This document shows positions 45,699-56,181 of a DNA stretch of 64,000 bases, piece by piece. Source of the DNA: an uncultured bacterium (GTDB taxonomy: Bacteria; Bacteroidota; Bacteroidia; Sphingobacteriales; Sphingobacteriaceae); the NCBI GenBank assembly GCA_903828245.1, contig CAIKLP010000009.1:1-64000 (forward strand), written 5' to 3'. Numbering within the stretch: position 1 is the first letter of the stretch; each line of letters begins with the position of its first letter. The position numbers were made by a program, and so were the translations under genes. Under the pieces are notes generated by a model. It did no database searches. It was not told where the DNA came from and saw nothing but the letters and a program-made list of their open reading frames with translations.

Positions 45699-47165
45699 TT
45701 AAATTTTTACAATTTTACCAATCAGCGTAGCTGATGTGCAACTTTCAATTAGTACTTGAACGTAATCCCCTTTTTTATATGAATCTACTATTGGAAAAAC
45801 GACTACTGCATTTTGATCATTCTTACCGGCAAAATCATTTGCTGATTTTTTAGAAAACCCTTCGATTAATACTTCATGCGTTTGGCCTACAAATTCTTTT
45901 AATTTTTCTAAACTATGGCCTCTTTGTAAGGCTATCACTTGATCTAGTCTTGCAGCTTTTGTAGCATCATCAACATCATCCTTCATTTTCTTTGCTGCAG
46001 GCGTACCAGGCCTTTCAGAATAAGAGAATTGATAAGCGTAATTAAATTTCACAAGCGCCATCATGCTTAAAGTATCTTTAAATTCCGCTTCTATTTCGCC
46101 ACAAAAACCAGTAATAATATCGGTTGAAATTGCGCATCCAGGAATAATTCTTCTAATGGCATCAATTCTATTTAAATACCACTCTCTAGAATAATTTCTA
46201 TTCATGCGATCTAAAACCGTTGTGCTTCCAGATTGAACAGGTAAATGAATTGAATTACAAATATTAGCATGATCGGCAATGGTTTGTAATACTTCGTCGG
46301 TAATATCTTTTGGATGTGAGGTAGAAAATCGAACACGCATGAATGGATTTACCTTTGCAACAAGCGCTAATAATGCAGCAAAATTGGTAAGCTCTTGCGT
46401 GGTTTCATCTAACCATTTATAAGAATCTACATTTTGTCCTAATAAAATTACTTCGCGATAACCATTCGAAAACAAATCAACTACTTCTTTAATAATCGAA
46501 TTCACATTTCTACTTCGCTCTCTACCCCTTGTAAATGGGACCACACAGAAGGAACACATATTGTCACAACCACGCATAATAGAAACGTAAGCATTTACAC
46601 CATTGGTATTTAATCTAAGTGGAGTAATATCTGCGTAGGTTTCTTCTCTAGATAATAATACATTGATCGCCTTTTGGCCATCATCTGCTTGAGATAATAA
46701 TAATGGTAAATCTCTATATGCATCTGGACCAATTACTAAATCAACTAATTTTTCTTCTTCAATAAATTTTGCTTTGAGTCTTTCTGCCATGCAACCTAAT
46801 ACACCAACAATGGTGCTTGGCTTGGCAATTTTTTGTGCCCTAAAGTCGGTTAGTCTTTTACGAATTCTTTGCTCGGCATTTTCGCGAATAGAACAGGTAT
46901 TGATAAAAACAACATCGGCTTCTTTATAATCTGAAGTTGTTTGAAATCCCATTTCTAACATGATTGATGCAACCACTTCCGAATCGGCAAAGTTCATGGC
47001 ACAGCCATAACTTTCAATATAGAAGTATCCTTTATGGCCAACTTGTTGATTATCAGATAGTTTACTATTTTCTGATGGGGTATAAAAAGGGTCATAAACA
47101 TTGTTATTGTTTGAATCAGAACTTACTAACTCGTTGTTTTTCAATGTTTTATCTAATTCGTTCAT
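45699..47165 (-). CDS. miaB: tRNA-2-methylthio-N6-dimethylallyladenosine synthase
   Basis: 488 residues. Radical-SAM methylthiotransferase that modifies A37 of tRNAs. The N-terminal MTTase domain holds [22 protein letters not shown] and GCMAERL; the radical-SAM cluster motif is CDNMCSFC in [19 protein letters not shown]; a TRAM domain follows at the C-terminus. The start lies only 17 bases from the candidate left end of the integrated element, so its original upstream region has been displaced. Confidence 0.97.
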
Positions 47166-47181
47166 TTTGGCTTGTTATAAA

Positions 47182-47194
47182 TATTATTTTATAA
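47182..47194 (+). repeat. Candidate left attachment site (direct repeat copy 1)
   Basis: TATTATTTTATAA, identical to the copy at 56008-56020 and in the same orientation. It lies 17 bases upstream of the miaB start. Confidence 0.35.
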
Positions 47195-47388
47195 TTCTAC
47201 TTTTTACATTTTATACCCAAATAATGGGTACAAAATATTCGTACGAAATTACAACCTTTTAATGAATCTGACAATTTGTCCCACTTTATCTAAAGAGGCT
47301 GATGAAAATTATTGGATTGAGTGATTATTTGTACAAATTCTAGCATATACAATCTATCAAATTGTGGGAATATATATGTATTTACAGG

Positions 47389-47583
47389 TTACTCTGTAAT
47401 TAACCTCTCCTTATGTTTATTTTCCCATTCAATCAAATCATCTATTCTAATATACTTTGAATGTGATGATATTTCAATGATGGGTAAACCATGGTTTTTT
47501 CTCCAATTTTCAATTGTAGCCCTATCCACTCCAAAAATGTTTTCAAGTTCTTGTTTACTTATTCTTTTATCAATGTTTAACAT
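47389..47583 (-). CDS. Excisionase-like helix-turn-helix protein
   Basis: 64 residues. The whole protein is one winged-HTH-like domain of the MerR/Xis or DNA-packaging type (KQELENIFGVDRATIENWRKNHGLP, then YIRIDDLIEWENKH). Such small proteins commonly direct integrase to excision or control element genes. Last of three genes read leftwards from 48338, 19 bases after the preceding stop. Function as excisionase is inference. Confidence 0.65.
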   Translation of the reverse strand: MLNIDKRISKQELENIFGVDRATIENWRKNHGLPIIEISSHSKYIRIDDLIEWENKHKERLITE

Positions 47584-47602
47584 AGTTTGTAGATTTTATA
47601 TA

Positions 47603-47893
47603 TTAATTGTGTTTTCGCCTTTGTTTCTTAATAGTGTGTAGAATATCAGTTAATGATACACTATCTGATTTTACTTGCTTTGTTTCAATTTGTGTATCAG
47701 ATACAGGATGATACATTGAATATGTTTTCATTTGTTTTACAACATTATTTAGATTTCCGTGCAATTCACCCAGTTTTTCAAGGAAATCAGATAATGTGTC
47801 AGGGTCAATTGTATCCCATTTTTGAATGATTGTATGTAATATCTTTTTATATAACAACAAATCAGTTTTACTTAAAAATTGTTCTAATCCCAT
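47603..47893 (-). CDS. Small protein of unknown function
   Basis: 96 residues, predicted mostly helical (residues 1-60, FLSKTDLLLYKKILHTIIQKW and LSDFLEKLGELHGNL), with a basic C-terminus ending KKQRRKHN. No family recognised; the size, charge and place between the HUH protein and the HTH protein would fit an accessory DNA-binding or mobilisation protein, but this is guesswork. Four bases after the HUH gene, so the two are probably co-translated. Confidence 0.55.
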   Translation of the reverse strand: MGLEQFLSKTDLLLYKKILHTIIQKWDTIDPDTLSDFLEKLGELHGNLNNVVKQMKTYSMYHPVSDTQIETKQVKSDSVSLTDILHTIKKQRRKHN

Positions 47894-47897
47894 ATTC

Positions 47898-48338
47898 TTA
47901 ATTTTGAATTATATCCCATACTATATCTGATTTTGTAAGGGTATTGATATTGAAATGTTTTGTGATGTACATACCAGCATTATAATTGTTTTTAATATCC
48001 TCAATATGTACTAAATCAGCTTTATTGCACTTTTTATAGTTATTCAAACCTTTTAATAGTATTTCTTTATCCTTACCATCTATAAGTATATGTAAATGGT
48101 AGTTATTATAATCAACAGAATCTCGTTCTCCAACATAAACAACTCTATTAAATGATTCTAAACTTTTGATAACTTTCTTAGCTGTATTCCTTACTACTGT
48201 GCTATTTGTTTTATAATTCTTTCTAATTGTAACCATATATTCCCAATTCATTCTTCCTATCCAATCTCCATAATCTTTAGAATTGTTTCTCTTATAGGAT
48301 TCAGCTTTGTTCTCATTTTTTGTTTCTTTTAAGTTCAT
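47898..48338 (-). CDS. Miniature HUH-type protein (Rep/relaxase-like)
   Basis: 146 residues. Three motifs of rolling-circle HUH endonucleases appear in order: motif I as EYMVTIRK (residues 33-40), the HUH motif as YHLHILID (His81 and His83) and a YxxK motif as GMYITKHF (Tyr124, Lys127). The single tyrosine would nick DNA and form a covalent link. It is shorter than most Rep or relaxase proteins and has no helicase part. It is the first gene of a leftward operon facing the ParB-domain gene across a 198-base region holding a hairpin that could be its target. Assignment is by motif only. Confidence 0.6.
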   Translation of the reverse strand: MNLKETKNENKAESYKRNNSKDYGDWIGRMNWEYMVTIRKNYKTNSTVVRNTAKKVIKSLESFNRVVYVGERDSVDYNNYHLHILIDGKDKEILLKGLNNYKKCNKADLVHIEDIKNNYNAGMYITKHFNINTLTKSDIVWDIIQN

Positions 48339-48536
48339 ATTTGTTCATTTTTAGATATAACAATAGTAGATAGGGTAGATTTTCTACCCATTTTCATAAC
48401 CTATTCGTGATTATAAGTATATGGTTGGATTCCCAAACAGCTAAAAATGTGATACAAAATGAAAAAAAATGGGAAAAGATTAAATTTTGGAAAAAATCGG
48501 GTATTTTAGGATGAACAAAATTGTTCATTTAAGAAT
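48339..48536. promoter_or_regulatory. Divergent control region with hairpin and palindrome
   Basis: Separates the HUH gene from the ParB-domain gene. It holds a TTGTTCA half-site next to the HUH start (48341-48347), a 7-bp perfect hairpin with a TTT loop (GGGTAGA/TCTACCC, 48373-48389), and the 16-bp palindrome TGAACAAAATTGTTCA (48512-48527), nine bases before the ParB-domain ATG. The hairpin could be a nick site for the HUH protein; the palindrome looks like an operator (inference). Confidence 0.5.
48512..48527. promoter_or_regulatory. 16-bp palindrome, candidate operator or ParB-type site
   Basis: TGAACAAAATTGTTCA is a perfect inverted repeat (7+2+7) nine bases before the start codon of the ParB-domain gene. 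It recurs at 54214-54229 (centre TT) and, with one mismatch, at 51211-51226 (centre TA). Confidence 0.55.
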
Positions 48537-50741
48537 ATGGATTACAACGAAAGAAAGAAAATAAGGCAGGAATTCTCCAATTTCAAGAAGAAAATGGATA
48601 AGAAGGGTGTAGAAATGTTGCTAAATCGTTCAGGTAATGAAGATATTAAGCTCAAATTGGAAAATGGTACAATTACCTCACAAGAGGCCGAGGAGTTCCT
48701 TAAATCAAGATTAAATGGTGTTACAAGCATCAAACTAAAAGGTAAGGGTAGATTTGTTGAACCAAATGAACATGCAATTTCTATGGCTAAACATAATTTA
48801 TCATTAGGTAATGAAAACAACCTAATTAAGATAATTGAAGAAATTGAGGGTGGAATCAGTACAGGAGATGATACCAAAGATTCTGGTGTACAAATAGTTG
48901 ATATTGTTAAACTTAAACCTCATCCACATAATTACAAGATTTATGAGCCATTTTCCGATGAAGATGAGAAATTAAAGAGGGATTTCATTAATTCAATTGA
49001 AACTTATGGGATTTTAGAACCTATCGTAGTTAATGAAAATTATGAAATAATATCAGGACATCGTAGATTCTTCGCTTGTTTGGATTTAGGTATCTCATCA
49101 GTACCTATTAGGATAAAATCATTTGAAAATGAAATCATAGCTATCATTCATTTCAATAAACAAAGGGAGAAAAGTGGTACTATCATCAGAAATGAGTTTA
49201 ATGAGTTAGATAATTTGTTATTTAAAAAACTTGGTGGTAGAGGTAAAAAGAATGAGGGGATTGATATTTACAATACGATTTCAGAAATATTTAATATTAG
49301 TAGGGGTTCTGCAACTAAATTATATAAGATATTTCAAGAGGATAAGGAGTTGTTTATTAAGGTTAAACTACCTCAAAATCCAAATGGTACATTATCCATT
49401 GATAAAGCATATTTCTCCTTAAAATCAGTTAAAACATTATCGGTTTCCAAAAAAGTAACTGAAAAGAATCATGTTACTTTAGTTAGAAACTCAATATCAA
49501 ATTTATCAAGCGAAGAACTATTTTCTATTTTAAAAACAACTTACCCATTCTCTTTAATGGGAGATTATAACTCAAATGAGGGATACACTAATATCAGCCT
49601 CAATCAATCCAAATTTGAAACATTTGATAAGAAAAGAAAAGAATTAGTAGATGATTTAGAGTTCAAAAAATCACTTACAACAGAAGAATTATTGATGTTT
49701 GAAAAGTTAGATGAAATACAACGAACAAAGATTACTAATGAGATAAAAAAACAAGTTATTGATGATTTGTGGAGGCCAACTGATATTACAAATGAGAAAC
49801 TCACTATTAGTGAAATAGAAAATATTACTCCAGTATTAGTACTTACTAATGGGGATGAGTATTTCAATGCTATAAGAGTTTATACTCATTCTTTAAGTTG
49901 GAGTCCCAATGTAGGAAGGAATCTCAAATATGTAGTTCATGATAAGAATACTAATAAGATATTAGGTTGTATTGTTATTGGTTCTGATGTACTTCATTTG
50001 GAAGGTAGGGATACTAAAATTGGATGGAATACAGATACTAAAATCGGTAAGAAAAAGATTAACCACATAGGAATGGCCACTACAATTCTACCTACTTTTC
50101 TGTTAGGTTATAACTTTTTAGGAACAAAGTTAATTGCCAGTTTAGTACAATCTAAAGTAATTGAAAATGATTGGAAAGATAGGTATGGAGATGTTTTAGT
50201 AGGTATAACTACTACATCTTTATATGGTTCATTTAGTAGTTATAATGGTATCCCAAATTGGAATAAATGTGGCTTATCAAAAGGTAAGGTTATCTTAAAT
50301 CCTTCTAACCATTTATATAAGTTTTGGTATAATTGGTTAAAAGAAAACCATCCCGATGATTTCAATAAATCAACAATAACGGAGAACAATACAATTGTAA
50401 GCGGACCCAAACAGAAGATTATCAAATCTATATTCAGTTTGTTGAATCTAAAACAAACTGAATATTATCATATGCACCAAAGAGGGGTATATTTTTACTC
50501 TATCTATGAGAACACCATAGAGTTCCTAAATGATAAAATAGGAGAAAATGAACTAATCCCAAAGAAGGTAAAAGAAGATTCTTTTTTAAAGTGGTGGAAA
50601 CCCAAAGCAATAAATCGTTATCAAAAGTTATTAAAAGAGGATAGAATTGAGAAAGATTTCTATTGGTATGAAAAGATGAATGAAAAGGAATTAAAAGATT
50701 GGTTAATGAACAGAGGCAAGAATATTCTATTAAACGATTAA
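48537..50741 (+). CDS. ParB-domain protein fused to a DruA/Mom-like C-terminal domain
   Basis: 734 residues. Residues 1-110 are charged and helical. Residues 118-300 form a ParB/Srx-type domain: VDIVKLKPHPHNYK, YGILEPIVVNE, ISGHRRFFACLDLGISSVPI (GHRR at 174-177), then an HTH-like part (ISEIFNISRGSATKLYKI). Residues 425-610 (RDTKIGW ... ILPTFLLG ... KDRYGD ... YNGIPNWNKCGLSKGK) resemble in layout the DUF4338 domain of Druantia DruA and the Mom-like acyltransferases. This pairing is unfamiliar to me. The stop overlaps that of the convergent glycosyltransferase gene. ParB assignment fairly firm; C-terminal call tentative. Confidence 0.7.
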   Translation: MDYNERKKIRQEFSNFKKKMDKKGVEMLLNRSGNEDIKLKLENGTITSQEAEEFLKSRLNGVTSIKLKGKGRFVEPNEHAISMAKHNLSLGNENNLIKIIEEIEGGISTGDDTKDSGVQIVDIVKLKPHPHNYKIYEPFSDEDEKLKRDFINSIETYGILEPIVVNENYEIISGHRRFFACLDLGISSVPIRIKSFENEIIAIIHFNKQREKSGTIIRNEFNELDNLLFKKLGGRGKKNEGIDIYNTISEIFNISRGSATKLYKIFQEDKELFIKVKLPQNPNGTLSIDKAYFSLKSVKTLSVSKKVTEKNHVTLVRNSISNLSSEELFSILKTTYPFSLMGDYNSNEGYTNISLNQSKFETFDKKRKELVDDLEFKKSLTTEELLMFEKLDEIQRTKITNEIKKQVIDDLWRPTDITNEKLTISEIENITPVLVLTNGDEYFNAIRVYTHSLSWSPNVGRNLKYVVHDKNTNKILGCIVIGSDVLHLEGRDTKIGWNTDTKIGKKKINHIGMATTILPTFLLGYNFLGTKLIASLVQSKVIENDWKDRYGDVLVGITTTSLYGSFSSYNGIPNWNKCGLSKGKVILNPSNHLYKFWYNWLKENHPDDFNKSTITENNTIVSGPKQKIIKSIFSLLNLKQTEYYHMHQRGVYFYSIYENTIEFLNDKIGENELIPKKVKEDSFLKWWKPKAINRYQKLLKEDRIEKDFYWYEKMNEKELKDWLMNRGKNILLND

Positions 50742-51874
50742 CCTAATAAATGTTGTTTTAATTCATCATATTGGGAGTTATTAGATAACACCTTAGCGTG
50801 ATTGATAGAATTTATTACCCATTTATGATAGAAAATTTCATCATCCAATAATCTATCTAAAATCTCAAATAGTTCAGTTTGGTTCTTATAGAATAGCCCA
50901 TTGGGATAGATTTCCCTATAATTCTCACATTCTTCAAATATTACGGGAGTACCTCTCATTAAACTATCAGTTGCGGATATATTCCAACCAAAATGTGAAT
51001 CAGATGGAACAATAGTTACCCAACATTGGGAAATACTCTTGTAATAATCGGATTTGTCAACTGAATGTGTATCAATCCATTTTTCATTGAATTGTATGCA
51101 ATATTTATCAGCTTGTGAAATCCATACATTGAAATCAGTTCTTAATTCTCTGTATTTGAATATTTGTTTAACAAATGTATGATAACCTTTATCATGGGTA
51201 CATCTGTGATTGAACAATATTGTTCGTTCTCTTTTTTGGGGTATTTGTTTTATTATTAAGTTTTCGGGTATTGATAGATAAAATGGTTGAATAATCTTTT
51301 CCAACTCATTCAATATTCTATCATTGAAAACCATACTAGCCTCATCAATAATGTGTTTTTTTTGAGTTTTAGTATTAACATAGAGGATTTTCATTTGTAA
51401 AGCCCCCAAAATTTCTCGTTCAAAATTTAGAAAATTGTTAAGATTTGATTTACCATTACAAAGTTCCATTTCCCACCAATGGGCATATCCAATGATGGAT
51501 TTATTATTGGGTACAAATCTCCTTATGTTCCAATCCGGTAGGTGTGAATAAACTACATCATATTTTACCCAAAAATCATTCGTTACTTTGTTTGGTGATA
51601 GAGTAGAACTTTGTAAAAGTTTAATCATATCAATTGGAAAAGATACTCTCATATGAAACATATTGCCACTCAAATTGATTGGAATTTGTTTCACATTGGT
51701 TTTATCGGATAGAATTTTTACAGGCTTAATAACTGGAATGTACCAATAGAATTCATTACCTAAATTCGTTATTTGCTGGTTTAAAACATCAAAAAAAGAA
51801 TCCATTTCAGGATTCTTTGAATTTGTAATATTAGGAATTACAAGGATATTACGGTAGTTATTTACGATTGGCAT
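50738..51874 (-). CDS. GT-B glycosyltransferase-like protein
   Basis: 378 residues from the ATG at 51874; a TTG at 51880 is also in frame. The C-terminal half has the GT4-type nucleotide-sugar-binding pattern: FNHRCTHDKGYHTFVKQI, then SDSHFGWNISATDSLMRGTPVIFEECENYREIYPNG, where D replaces the usual E before the LMRGTPV segment. No membrane segment, so cytosolic. Lying in an element beside a ParB/DruA-like gene, it could glycosylate DNA or another intracellular acceptor rather than a surface polymer (inference). Convergent overlap of four bases with the ParB-domain gene. Confidence 0.65.
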   Translation of the reverse strand: MPIVNNYRNILVIPNITNSKNPEMDSFFDVLNQQITNLGNEFYWYIPVIKPVKILSDKTNVKQIPINLSGNMFHMRVSFPIDMIKLLQSSTLSPNKVTNDFWVKYDVVYSHLPDWNIRRFVPNNKSIIGYAHWWEMELCNGKSNLNNFLNFEREILGALQMKILYVNTKTQKKHIIDEASMVFNDRILNELEKIIQPFYLSIPENLIIKQIPQKRERTILFNHRCTHDKGYHTFVKQIFKYRELRTDFNVWISQADKYCIQFNEKWIDTHSVDKSDYYKSISQCWVTIVPSDSHFGWNISATDSLMRGTPVIFEECENYREIYPNGLFYKNQTELFEILDRLLDDEIFYHKWVINSINHAKVLSNNSQYDELKQHLLG

Positions 51875-51970
51875 AATCAATTAGAACAAAGTTATAGATA
51901 CACCACTTAATCTTTCATTTGTAACCTTCATTCGATACCTAATTGAGATAGAATATTCTCCTATCAAAGT

Positions 51971-53170
51971 TTATTTTTGATGGTTAATCATTCTAATTCC
52001 TTCTTTTATAAATTCGTCTTCGATGTCATCATTACATACTACTTTATATTTTGGTACAAATTTTTCTCTTGGATAACCTGTAATGTGTAAAACCTCAATA
52101 TAAGAGTATTGATAACCATAATTAAAATTAGAGAACTTATAACTTTTAGTTGCACCTGCTAATTTCAACATTTCTGTACCAACTATTTTTCCAATACCGG
52201 TTCCATCAAATCCAGATGCTAAACCTTCTCCTACACTACCAGTCCATCTCCCAACTAAAACAATTAATGGTTTGTTGTATTTAGGTTTTGTAGTTTTTAT
52301 ATAATCATCAAAATTTTCTTGTTTGTTAATGTACTTCTGAAATATCATTTTTTTATTTGTGAAATGTCCTGCAATTGGATATGCTATATTTGTGTTTCCA
52401 CCGTCTACTGTGTTTCGTAAGTCCAAAATAATACCATTAGTTTCTTCTAATTTGTTTAGGGCTTGTTTAAATTCTTTTATAGTTTTTGTTTCTCCCAATG
52501 AATTATTTAAACGGATAACTCCAATATTGTCAATAATTTTGTAGGACAATAAATTGGTGTCTTTTCTAATCTTGATTTTATCAATATCTAATGTTTCTAT
52601 TTTACCTGCTTTGGTTTTTAAAGTAACTATTCTCGGTTCATTTCGTCTTCCTGAAAGTATTTTATTCGAAATCCAAGTTCTTATCTCATTATTGTTTTTA
52701 TTTTGACAATGTGTTGGGAATTTTTCAATTAACTCATTGAAATTAACTCCGTTAAATGATAGTATCTCAGCATTAGTAATATTGATGTTCAATCCACTTT
52801 CTATTTGGTCTTTCCAAGTACTAGAAATTTCAGTTTTATCTCCTATTGTTGAAACAAAAATTGGACTGTAAAGCCTATAAGAAAATTTGTTTGAAGTATT
52901 CAAATGAAGATGTGAGTCATAAAACTCATCCAATATGTATTCAAAAAATAACAACACTTCTGTACTGTTTTTTATGCTGTCAATTTTTTGACTGTAATAG
53001 TTTTTAATACAATTTAAATCTACATCTTTCGTGTTATAATAAACATAGTTTGTTTCCAAATTTGACATTAATTTCTCAAAATCTTGTCTAACTTTTAATT
53101 TGTCAACAATATTAGTTTGTCCCAAAGCAACATTTCCTAATAGTAGAAAAAAGAGTATTAATCTGTTCAT
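51971..53170 (-). CDS. Secreted S41-type (C-terminal processing) peptidase
   Basis: 399 residues with a signal peptide (MNRLILFFLLLGNVALGQ). The C-terminal half has the S41/tail-specific protease fold: IILDLRNTVDGGN, then the catalytic Ser in GRWTGSVGEGLASGF and a downstream Lys (TEMLKLAG). No PDZ domain is evident. A periplasmic or surface protease is likely; its presence in the element is a passenger trait of unknown value. It has its own 407-base upstream region shared with the serine recombinase. Confidence 0.8.
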   Translation of the reverse strand: MNRLILFFLLLGNVALGQTNIVDKLKVRQDFEKLMSNLETNYVYYNTKDVDLNCIKNYYSQKIDSIKNSTEVLLFFEYILDEFYDSHLHLNTSNKFSYRLYSPIFVSTIGDKTEISSTWKDQIESGLNINITNAEILSFNGVNFNELIEKFPTHCQNKNNNEIRTWISNKILSGRRNEPRIVTLKTKAGKIETLDIDKIKIRKDTNLLSYKIIDNIGVIRLNNSLGETKTIKEFKQALNKLEETNGIILDLRNTVDGGNTNIAYPIAGHFTNKKMIFQKYINKQENFDDYIKTTKPKYNKPLIVLVGRWTGSVGEGLASGFDGTGIGKIVGTEMLKLAGATKSYKFSNFNYGYQYSYIEVLHITGYPREKFVPKYKVVCNDDIEDEFIKEGIRMINHQK

Positions 53171-53577
53171 ATTTTGTTTTCAGAGTCGTTCCATTAATTC
53201 GAACTTAAATCGAAAATTTAGGAAATCTTTTATTTTGACCTGTCTCAAATATATTATATCATTTAAATATTACCTAATAGTTAGTATATCAATATTTCCC
53301 TAGTAAAAAAATCGCCTCACGATTCGTGGGTATCCGATACAGTTATTGGATAGTTGAAAAGTTCCAGCTACAAGAAACTGGTCCGGCATGTTTAATTATC
53401 TTACCCTTTTGGGTTGTATTGAAGTGTATTCTAACAAGTATTCTTTTATAAAAATGAACATTACCGCCTCCTCATTCAATTAAAGAACTCACAATTTTAA
53501 GTACACTATAAAATAGGAGAGTCATTTTCTAAAATAACCTGTTAAATAGTTGCCTGAATCAGGGATTTTTCACAGAT
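53171..53577. other. 407-base divergent intergenic region with hairpin cluster
   Basis: No ORF I can support. The outer parts are AT-rich. The middle (53311-53414) is visibly richer in GC and has four hairpins in a row: CACGA-T-TCGTG (53318-53328), TATCCGATA/TATTGGATA with a CAGT loop (53331-53352, one G-U pair), CCAG/CTGG (53364-53381), and ACCC-TTTT-GGGT (53403-53414). On the minus strand the first is followed by a short terminator-like AATCG-TGAGG-CGATTTTTTT. It may hold a structured RNA or recombination sites for the neighbouring serine recombinase. Confidence 0.5.
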
Positions 53578-53598
53578 TTGAGGTATAAATCATACCAC

Positions 53599-54213
53599 AT
53601 GAAAAATATGAGTAAAAAGGTAATTAGATACAATCGTATCAGTACTATCCAACAAAATTTAGATAGGCAGCAACAAAAGAATAGTGAGTTTGATATGGTT
53701 TTTGAAGATAGGTGTAGTGGAACTATACCATTATTTGAAAGGCCATTTGGAAAAGAGATTAAATCTGTAATTGAAAGTGGTGAAGTTGGTGAAATCAGTA
53801 TTCATTCAATAGATAGGTTGGCTCGTAATCTAAAGGATTTATTAGGTTTAATTGATTTCTTTCACCTATATGGAGTTTGTGTAAGTATTGAAAATTTAGG
53901 TTTAAAAACCCTAGTAGATGGGAAAATGAACTATACCATAAAGATGTTGATTTCGGTGATGGGTGGATTTGCAGAGATTGAAAACGAAATTAGAAAGGAG
54001 AGGCAAGTTGAGGGTATCCAATTAGCCAAAATGAAAGGAATCTATAAGAACCGAAAACAAAGAGGTAAAGAACCTATTATGAAGTTTCTATCAAAACATG
54101 AGAAACCATTACAATTATTACAGAAAGGTTATAAAGCCTCCGAAGTTTCTAAAATATGTGGAATACACCCCAATACATTAACTAAAATCAAAAAGATAGT
54201 GGAATTGGTATAA
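53599..54213 (+). CDS. Small serine recombinase (resolvase/invertase family)
   Basis: 204 residues from the ATG at 53599; an in-frame TTG at 53578 and an ATG at 53608 are alternatives. Catalytic Ser15 lies in YNRISTIQQNLDRQQ; the other active-site Arg residues are in SIDRLARNLKDLL, with EIENEIRKERQVEGIQLAKMKG forming the long helix E region. The C-terminal HTH (KASEVSKICGIHPNTLTKI) completes the resolvase/invertase layout. It could resolve multimers or invert a segment of the element. Convergent with the integrase, 16 bases between stops. Confidence 0.9.
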   Translation: MKNMSKKVIRYNRISTIQQNLDRQQQKNSEFDMVFEDRCSGTIPLFERPFGKEIKSVIESGEVGEISIHSIDRLARNLKDLLGLIDFFHLYGVCVSIENLGLKTLVDGKMNYTIKMLISVMGGFAEIENEIRKERQVEGIQLAKMKGIYKNRKQRGKEPIMKFLSKHEKPLQLLQKGYKASEVSKICGIHPNTLTKIKKIVELV

Positions 54214-54233
54214 TGAACAATTTTGTTCATTAT
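54210..54233. promoter_or_regulatory. 24-base perfect palindrome between the two recombinase genes
   Basis: An 11-bp stem (ATAATGAACAA with its complement) around a two-base centre, overlapping both convergent stop codons. Its core TGAACAATTTTGTTCA is the 16-bp element palindrome. It could end both transcripts or bind a protein; no T-tract follows. Confidence 0.6.
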
Positions 54234-55879
54234 GATTTTAGAATATCCCTCAATTTGGATTTTTGAAGGGTATTTCGTTTACTTTCCTCACTAACTCTTG
54301 TATAATACCTCATCATTGTATTCAGATTGTGGCCGGTGATTTCGCATACATCTAAAGGTAGAACCCCTTTTTTCCTTAACATATAACTAATGAAAAAGGC
54401 TCTTAAATGATGTGATGAATTAATACCATAGGTATTCCAACCTAATCCACCATCTGATACATCATTTACTATCTTTTCTTTAAATAGATTCAAATAATAG
54501 GTAGTTGAGTATCCTTTATCCTTTTTCGTGTAAAAATTAGGTGATGGAAATGTAAGTGCGGATTTTGGAAACAAAGCGAATATCACATCTATTATGTTGG
54601 TTTCATAATGGATTTCACCTTTGGTATTGGTTTTAGTAACACATTTAATTCCAAATGGTGGTTTATGCCAACTCCATATTGTTTCTTCAATTGGAACAGA
54701 ACGATTCTTTAACTTACTATTTCTTATTTCTAATACATAATAATATTCATCTCCATCAGAAACATTTCTAAAATAGCTACTCTGTGTATTGTTATGTTTA
54801 TTGGATTCCCAACTTTCTTTATCACGATAGGAGTGAAGTATTTCAGATATTCTGAATCCATACCTTAATTGTAATAAGCCAATGAAATATACAATATCAC
54901 TCATTATAATAGAATTCTTTGGCTGATTCTTCTGTATAGTTCCTAATATTCCACCATCTTTAGTTTTGTGGGTATAAGATAATCGTTGTTCTCTAATTGG
55001 TTCTAAATCTCCTTCGTTTTTACAATACTCAATCCATACATCCCTTATTAATGTTGCTGTTTCTTTTACACAGGTATCGTAGTTTGATTGTTTGAAATCA
55101 ATATAATCTAGTTTAGAATTAACCTCACCTACAATTGATTTAATTAGATGTGTTTGATATTCTAATGTTATAAGGTGTTCTTTAAACAATTCTCTACCAT
55201 CTTCTTCAACCGGTTTTACAAGCCAATCCAAAAAGTATCTACAATTCTGTATAAATGATTTGATTGTACCTCTAACTAAATTAACCCCATCATCACTTAT
55301 ACTGCCATCAATTTTCCTTCTGTTTCTATTCTTTAGAAAAATAACAAAATCCTTAATATGGCCCTTCATCTCTCTATGTGGTACTATTCCTACTTTAGTT
55401 TTATTAATATCACAGAACTTTCGGAATTCGGTTATAAAGAATAGTTTATTTCGGATTGAAGTTGAGTTTTTTATAAGGTTATTATCTTCTGTTCTTACCC
55501 AAGCATCGTATTGAATTGAACCTCTGGTTCTGTTTTCCTTTTTCCACCCACCAATTTTACATAAGTGTTCTATATACTCATCAATGTATTTAACAATAGG
55601 AGTATCATTTACTTTAATATTCTGAAATGATGATTTTATTTTCTTTTTGAGTAATTCAGATGCGTAATCAAATGATGTACCATCATAGTTTTGAATATCA
55701 ATCTCACACTTACATAGGTACTTTAATCTATTTGATTTGTGTGAGCTAAGTTTAAAATACCAGTACCATATATCACTCACTTTCATAATAGTGAATGTAC
55801 CGGCATTATCTATGAACAAATCCTTGTTGTATTTTTTAAATAATTCTTCAGATTCGGAACTCCATCCGAATCCTTGCAT
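54230..55879 (-). CDS. Tyrosine recombinase (integrase)
   Basis: 549 residues from the ATG at 55879; an in-frame TTG at 55915 would add 12. The catalytic domain has Arg I in LQLRYGFRISEILHSY, the HxxR motif as HHLRAFFISYMLRKKG, His/Trp in CEITGHNLNTMMRYY, and the nucleophile Tyr near the end (RYYTRVSEES). The N-terminal 250 residues form a long arm/core-binding region, longer than in phage lambda-type integrases. It lies at the right end of the element, next to the candidate right att copy, as expected for an integrase. Confidence 0.9.
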   Translation of the reverse strand: MQGFGWSSESEELFKKYNKDLFIDNAGTFTIMKVSDIWYWYFKLSSHKSNRLKYLCKCEIDIQNYDGTSFDYASELLKKKIKSSFQNIKVNDTPIVKYIDEYIEHLCKIGGWKKENRTRGSIQYDAWVRTEDNNLIKNSTSIRNKLFFITEFRKFCDINKTKVGIVPHREMKGHIKDFVIFLKNRNRRKIDGSISDDGVNLVRGTIKSFIQNCRYFLDWLVKPVEEDGRELFKEHLITLEYQTHLIKSIVGEVNSKLDYIDFKQSNYDTCVKETATLIRDVWIEYCKNEGDLEPIREQRLSYTHKTKDGGILGTIQKNQPKNSIIMSDIVYFIGLLQLRYGFRISEILHSYRDKESWESNKHNNTQSSYFRNVSDGDEYYYVLEIRNSKLKNRSVPIEETIWSWHKPPFGIKCVTKTNTKGEIHYETNIIDVIFALFPKSALTFPSPNFYTKKDKGYSTTYYLNLFKEKIVNDVSDGGLGWNTYGINSSHHLRAFFISYMLRKKGVLPLDVCEITGHNLNTMMRYYTRVSEESKRNTLQKSKLRDILKS

Positions 55880-56007
55880 TATTTTCAGCTTATCCTTATT
55901 GATTAATCTTTTCAATTTGAACTAATTTCTATTCAAATTTAAAATAGAAAACTGAACTAAAAAATTAAATGGGGTATAAATGGGGAATAAAATAAAATAA
56001 CTGAATT

Positions 56008-56020
56008 TATTATTTTATAA
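56008..56020 (+). repeat. Candidate right attachment site (direct repeat copy 2)
   Basis: TATTATTTTATAA, identical to 47182-47194, between the integrase start and the 43-residue ORF. Confidence 0.35.
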
Positions 56021-56049
56021 AGTATTGTAAATCAATAAGTTACGGAAAT

Positions 56050-56181
56050 TTAGTAACAACCATAACATTCAATATATAACTTTCTCGCTGCAGCATTTGC
56101 AATGGTTGGCTCTATCATGATCGCCTCACCTTGCCTAAGCTCATCGTGCTCTTTTTGAAATATCCCTTTTATGCTTTCCAT
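56050..56181 (-). CDS. 43-residue small protein of unknown function
   Basis: ATG at 56181, stop at 56050. The protein begins MESIKGIFQKEHDELRQG and ends KLYIECYGCY; it is soluble, with a Cys/Tyr-rich tail. A TATTTTTG box (56192-56199, minus strand) lies just upstream. If the element is removed at the 13-base repeat, the ORF would end 58 bases before miaB on the same strand, so it was probably the gene ahead of miaB. I do not recognise the family; coding status is likely but unproved. Confidence 0.5.
   Translation of the reverse strand: MESIKGIFQKEHDELRQGEAIMIEPTIANAAARKLYIECYGCY

Follow-up and report, generated by a model that had tools for sequence, protein, structure and literature searches.

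The question raised by this locus is why a small integrated element should carry a ParB-domain protein fused to a DruA domain next to a glycosyltransferase, and what these two proteins might do. The locus lies on contig CAIKLP010000009.1 (assembly GCA_903828245.1) of an uncultured bacterium of the Sphingobacteriaceae, of which positions 1 to 64,000 were analysed; this whole stretch is called the window. We lean slightly towards a plasmid- or satellite-like integrative element that carries a ParB-guided DNA-modifying enzyme together with a glycosyltransferase, with three palindromes possibly serving as ParB loading sites.

A first-pass annotation, made from the letters alone, had placed a block at 47182-56020 between miaB and host-like genes. 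The block is real, but it is inserted inside miaB and is larger than described, its ends being the attachment (att) cores. The integrated element measures 9,055 bp core to core, with two TTCAATATA cores at 47013-47021 and 56068-56076. Its boundaries are as follows (ORF, open reading frame):

47013-56076, no strand: whole integrated element (direct repeat and alignment with uninterrupted miaB from same-genus genomes)
47013-47021, minus strand: attL core, TATATTGAA on the miaB strand, at the YIESYGC codons within miaB (DNA alignment)
56068-56076, minus strand: attR core (DNA alignment)
56053-56181, minus strand: displaced native miaB 5' end, MESIKGIFQKEHDE...KLYIECYGCY and stop (protein comparison and translation)
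45699-47165, minus strand: miaB with element-supplied start and N-terminus (47022-47165) (ORF list, alignment)

A 29-nt imperfect repeat (47001-47029 and 56056-56084) covers the miaB codons for YIESYGC. DNA alignment places the crossover in TATATTGAA: on the left, the miaB start comes from the element, and on the right, the displaced native start gives way to element sequence. Past the right element end, the minus strand translates as MESIKGIFQKEHDELRQGEAIMIEPTIANAAARKLYIECYGCY followed by a stop codon. The displaced 5' end has 98% identity over 43 residues to a query built on the displaced start, and this query is in turn 97% and 95% identical to the uninterrupted miaB of G395 and G399, respectively. 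Uninterrupted miaB was present in four same-genus genomes (G395, G396, G397 and G399), with starts closely similar to the displaced residues. The two element ends have recombined at the 9-bp core in the miaB 5' end, and miaB is still readable because the element brings a replacement start. Direct att repeats, an interrupted target, an intact target in relatives and a new 5' end that restores a complete miaB are all found here, as in elements that replace the 5' end of their target gene. The att sites and the empty sites bear out the earlier idea of a small element that integrates site-specifically. Separately, the assembly of G397 splits in miaB exactly one base off the att core, between two contigs (C77 and C166; loci L216 and L215) that overlap by 141 bp; this break hints that the miaB site varies in that population.

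Targeting of a gene 5' end is also known from SXT, which integrates in prfC. Islands associated with dusA (PMC4482086) likewise enter the 5' end of a gene, which gets a new start from the element, and dusA and miaB both encode tRNA-modifying enzymes. However, the dusA islands and SXT differ from the window element in integrase and in target, and the MiaB-like integration target reported in PMC4482086 is rimO in Polaromonas, not miaB. The 5' end of miaB is an apparent addition to the known integration sites.

The two genes around which the question turns are the following:

48537-50741, plus strand: ParB_N-DruA (GNAT-fold) fusion, 734 aa (ParB_N, Pfam 1.6e-9; DruA, PF14236 1.4e-26)
50738-51880, minus strand: glycosyltransferase, GT-1-type, phage-type, 380 aa (PF00534 2.7e-6)

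The ParB_N domain of the fusion shows the motifs GHRR (GxRR) and NKQR (N-x-Q-R). Structure prediction followed by Foldseek had been proposed in the first-pass annotation as a check, and AlphaFold2 models of the full fusion and of the DruA part alone (pLDDT 88) gave a ParB/Noc fold N-terminally (Foldseek probability 1.0) and a GNAT fold for DruA, for which most of the top 50 PDB matches were GNAT-type acyltransferases (best probability 0.99, none at E<=0.001). As modelled, the DruA domain is of GNAT fold, and DUF4338 has been independently annotated as a GNAT domain (PMC10853773). The C-terminus had been described as "DruA/Mom-like". The DruA domain and the GNAT superfamily fold hold, and Mom belongs to that superfamily as well (PMC7824862), but direct kinship was not seen: profile comparison of DruA with Mom of phage Mu and the Mom family (PF25680) gave no match, and DruA is not a member of PF25680. 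We therefore ruled out DruA as a Mom homologue; only the superfamily fold is common to both.

As for the origin of the DruA part, it matched 597 stretches in IMG/VR, with identity at best 38-41%; Pelagibacter phages were matched at 1e-38, and identity to a plasmid DruA was 27.6%. In a DruA tree that took in one annotated Druantia DruA only, Nitrosococcus DruA and the homologue of G302 fell outside the phage-type clade with support 100/100. Judged from these comparisons, the DruA domain is of the type found in the replication modules of large aquatic phages, not of the Druantia type. The closest known counterparts belong to T4-type phages of marine and fresh waters; these DUF4338/DruA-like proteins, from Pelagibacter phages Mosig and HTVC008M and from Synechococcus phages (the latter noted by PMC12774648), share the DruA lineage and have the same glycosyltransferase family nearby. 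In phages DruA is a stand-alone ORF of ~400 aa in a replication module with PolB, clamp and clamp loader, whereas in the window it is fused to ParB and resides on a 9-kb integrated element. The fusion was not found in plasmids, where only single domains matched, and the phage matches listed were DruA-type proteins without the ParB part.

DruA-like proteins were also encountered elsewhere. BFVD matches to the DruA model (m75b2892f91f3) indicate that the giant viruses Faunusvirus, Yasminevirus and Dasosvirus encode DruA-fold proteins (best E 1.8e-19). A 733-aa DruA protein of Verrucomicrobium (L212, 9026-11224) has a long N-terminal part which is not ParB, and two tandem DruA paralogues (L209, 2280-4705, and L213, 969-3475) occur on phage-like contigs binned in a Thermoplasmata metagenome-assembled genome (MAG).

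The second gene was correctly recognised at first pass as a glycosyltransferase family member; it is 43% identical to phage glycosyltransferases, and the element carries the same DruA and glycosyltransferase gene pair as phages do. Its family (P0002) was present in 18 of 80 phage DruA loci, in several gene orders and at distances from directly adjacent to ~3 kb. In the reverse search, whose glycosyltransferase profile was seeded partly with DruA-linked sequences, DruA was found in 62 of the 80 loci retrieved, in 40 of them within 42 bp. When loci with at least 6 kb on each side of the glycosyltransferase were considered, DruA was present in 24 of 27 and Mom (identified as Pfam PF25680 and as PHROG "Mom-like DNA modification protein") in 21 of 27; since many of the phage contigs nearly duplicate one another, these 24 of 27 loci do not count independently. 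One phage locus (L069) reads, in order, Mom, ParB, glycosyltransferase, DruA and DNA polymerase (PolB). The earlier remark that the fusion and the glycosyltransferase recall phage DNA-base modification has thus gained in substance, since phages that have Mom as well keep the same two genes linked and often side by side.

A search of 84,980 species genomes gave matches at only 11 loci. One of these (L204, 7.6 kb) contains a serine recombinase, a ParB-DruA fusion, a tyrosine integrase, tRNA-Thr and an HUH-like protein; its contig is assigned to a "Pacearchaeota" MAG, and as the mobile genes are of bacterial type, it may be mis-binned. Another (L205) has a ParB-DruA gene with a frame break and adjoins tRNA-Arg. 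At this locus, which lies on a Nitrospinota MAG contig, a protein that weakly matches HhH-GPD DNA glycosylases (1623-2534, E 0.011) comes after the ParB-DruA gene. Integrase, DruA and serine recombinase occur together on a 12.8-kb element with 44-bp exact repeats at tRNA-Glu (L207) and on an 11.8-kb element with 50-bp exact repeats at tRNA-Met (L211); one stretch of a further locus (L208) is 94% and 87% identical to parts of the L207 element. In the tree, the three ParB-DruA fusions (window and two other loci) form one clade (97/93), while L207 and L211 stand separately, so elements of this kind acquired phage-type DruA on more than one occasion. Long branches leave the exact placement unsure.

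Three copies of one palindrome, GAACAANNTTGTTC, are spread over the element:

48513-48526, no strand: palindrome site 1, GAACAAAATTGTTC, 10 bp ahead of the ParB-DruA start
51212-51225, no strand: palindrome site 2, GAACAATATTGTTC, within the glycosyltransferase gene
54215-54228, no strand: palindrome site 3, GAACAATTTTGTTC, directly 3' of the serine recombinase stop codon

In the whole window, 0.01 occurrences would be expected. The complete 1.95-Mb genome holds four, that is, one beyond the element, near a citrate synthase-like gene, and none was found in 1.97 Mb of fetched loci. With just one extra genomic copy, a chromosomal operator was ruled out. On an excised 9,055-bp circle the gaps between the sites would be 2699, 3003 and 3353 bp, a spacing more regular than chance would give (p about 0.012). 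L211 has two palindromes TTTCGANNTCGAAA (6784 and 11644) with the arm and spacer lengths of the window sites and different cores, a likeness that we judge weak.

All genes named at first pass (HUH protein, ParB-DruA fusion, glycosyltransferase, tyrosine and serine recombinases) are present, and three had been missed: the HTH_17 Xis-like gene, a 96-aa ORF and an S41 peptidase. The remaining genes of the element are:

47389-47583, minus strand: HTH_17 protein, 64 aa, excisionase-like (Pfam 3.3e-6, PHROG excisionase 5.4e-6)
47603-47893, minus strand: 96-aa ORF (ORF list)
47898-48338, minus strand: HUH-type protein, 146 aa, candidate replication initiator (motifs, and homologues in G088 and G288)
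51971-53170, minus strand: S41 peptidase with signal peptide-like start, cargo (PF03572 3.5e-18)
53578-54213, plus strand: serine recombinase of the resolvase/invertase family, 211 aa (PF00239 3.5e-19, PHROG DNA invertase 1.3e-32)
54230-55915, minus strand: tyrosine recombinase (integrase), 561 aa (PHROG integrase 9e-7)

The HUH-type protein matched no family in any profile library; the motif order YMVTI / YHLHILI / YITK is legible in it, and its two remote homologues, from other genomes of the class, retain HxH and YYxSK. A homologue in another genome of the class (L226, 8465-8857) lies near a small ORF resembling a phage packaging protein. The tyrosine recombinase shows legible R, HxxR, GH and Y motifs; it had no match in the Pfam search, a search of 400 further genomes of the family gave no relative at E<=1e-5, and the ORFs of the element-type relative loci (L204 and others) gave no phmmer match. 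No relative of the S41 peptidase was found at E<=1e-10 in 40 related genomes, and IMG/VR held no close-match relatives of the integrase, the HUH protein, the glycosyltransferase (searched as a single sequence) or the full fusion. No convincing res-type repeats were seen 5' of the serine recombinase. The possibility, raised at first pass, that the block is a decayed known element was ruled out, as every main ORF is open and the catalytic motifs of the recombinases can be read.

As for its class, profile scans of the element proteins found neither a relaxase nor type IV secretion genes, as an integrative and conjugative element would have. Integrase, Xis and candidate replication initiator are present as in phage-inducible chromosomal islands (Xis and HUH by remote similarity and motif only), and no capsid-remodelling or packaging genes were found by Pfam or PHROGs. 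The satellite-like, defence-carrying elements of PMC12458937 also have integrase, excisionase-like and HUH genes, and tRNA att sites occur in relatives of the window element. In contrast to them, the window element and its relatives, of about 9-13 kb, carry phage-type modification genes as payload and possess a serine recombinase, and recognisable phage satellite or anti-restriction genes are missing from the window element.

According to the reading towards which we lean, the tyrosine recombinase and the HTH_17 protein would integrate and excise the element, the excised circle would replicate via the HUH protein, and the serine recombinase would resolve multimers or invert a segment. The ParB domain, of CTP-clamp type by homology, would bring the fusion to DNA as a DNA-modifying enzyme; the GNAT-fold DruA domain might acylate a base, or else a group linked to one, and what it makes might then be the substrate of the glycosyltransferase, in line with the suggestion for the phage pair. 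DNA modification is the function that we infer for the two proteins from homology. The most speculative step takes the three palindromes as ParB loading sites, from which the clamp would be loaded evenly over the element. In that case the element would mark its own DNA, and this mark may protect it from host restriction, or from the nucleases of a phage that carries this mark on its own DNA. Such marking is speculative. In its fullest form, which we consider possible but doubtful, the clamp would load at the element's own palindromes, slide, and deliver the base-modifying domain, which would restrict the mark, and the glycosylation that follows, to DNA joined to these sites and let the element mimic modified phage DNA.

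Several observations weigh against this reading. The attP junction of an excised circle (CTTCTATATTGAATGTTATGG) was absent from the element's own assembly, as it was from IMG/VR. Repeated palindromes were not found in L204, the other locus with fusion, integrase and resolvase, nor in L205, L207 or L208. The Pfam scan of the element found no ParA partner. The nearest relatives of the glycosyltransferase (L124, 9959-11110, and L125; 48%) are lone genes, opposite in strand to a phage tail/structural region, with no DruA within ~10 kb. To these we add the dependence among the phage counts and the lack of a profile match to Mom. GNAT enzymes also acylate small molecules, and the literature that we read shows no chemistry for DruA. 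Finally, proteins too are acylated by GNAT enzymes, and the GNAT domain in DndF has been proposed to act on proteins (PMC10853773).

A serious rival, albeit in our estimate an unlikely one, regards the palindromes as crossover sites of the serine recombinase, so that the 5.7-kb segment 48511-54230 would be invertible and subject to phase variation. In one orientation a promoter left of site 1 would drive ParB-DruA, and in the other it would point towards the side of the peptidase and the glycosyltransferase. Sites 1 and 3 have the geometry of serine-invertase sites, repeating each other exactly over 19 nt in inverted orientation, with a 2-bp AA/TT core; site 3 starts directly after the stop codon of the recombinase, site 1 separates the ParB-DruA start from the presumed promoter region, and the recombinase resembles DNA invertases in PHROGs, as listed. 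However, the TA core of site 2 is unable to pair with AA/TT, the flanks of sites 1 and 3 diverge beyond 19 bp, less than a 26-bp site would call for, the arms form perfect palindromes like those of operators or parS, and the assembly shows one orientation only.

Two further explanations change the role of the payload. Somewhat more improbable still is an anti-phage cassette on a mobile element, in which the fusion and the glycosyltransferase would target the DNA of invading phages or serve as a Druantia-like sensor. The DruA domain is indeed common to Druantia (PF14236 in type I DruA; PADLOC DruA1 matches at 5.6e-20), and defence genes are a frequent cargo of integrative elements that have integrase, Xis and HUH genes (PMC12458937), but the element encodes no nuclease, helicase or restriction component, and both its DruA lineage and its glycosyltransferase are phage genes rather than defence-island genes. 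The Druantia-type defence suggested at first pass was itself ruled out: the DruE helicase and further Druantia genes are absent from the eight element proteins, and the DruA domain falls outside the Druantia clade (100/100). We give least credence to plasmid-type maintenance with passengers, in which the fusion would serve in partition or regulation and acylate proteins through its GNAT domain, the glycosyltransferase would alter surface sugars, and their pairing would be a phage relic. A ParB fold with palindromic sites, HUH protein and resolvase does make up a plasmid kit, and the proposal for DndF and the solitary glycosyltransferase of L124 fit as well; the missing ParA does not, and the glycosyltransferase and DruA genes stay linked, next to Mom, while gene order varies across the phages and the element.

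Returning to the proposed ParB-guided modification enzyme with its glycosyltransferase, the analysis connects DruA/DUF4338, a widespread and uncharacterised phage family, with Mom and with one particular partner glycosyltransferase, by which its suspected role in DNA modification becomes testable. The family has moreover made its way into bacterial chromosomes aboard small elements with integrase and resolvase, one lineage having been fused to a DNA clamp. If this clamp targets modification in cis, DNA would be marked by molecule, not by sequence context.

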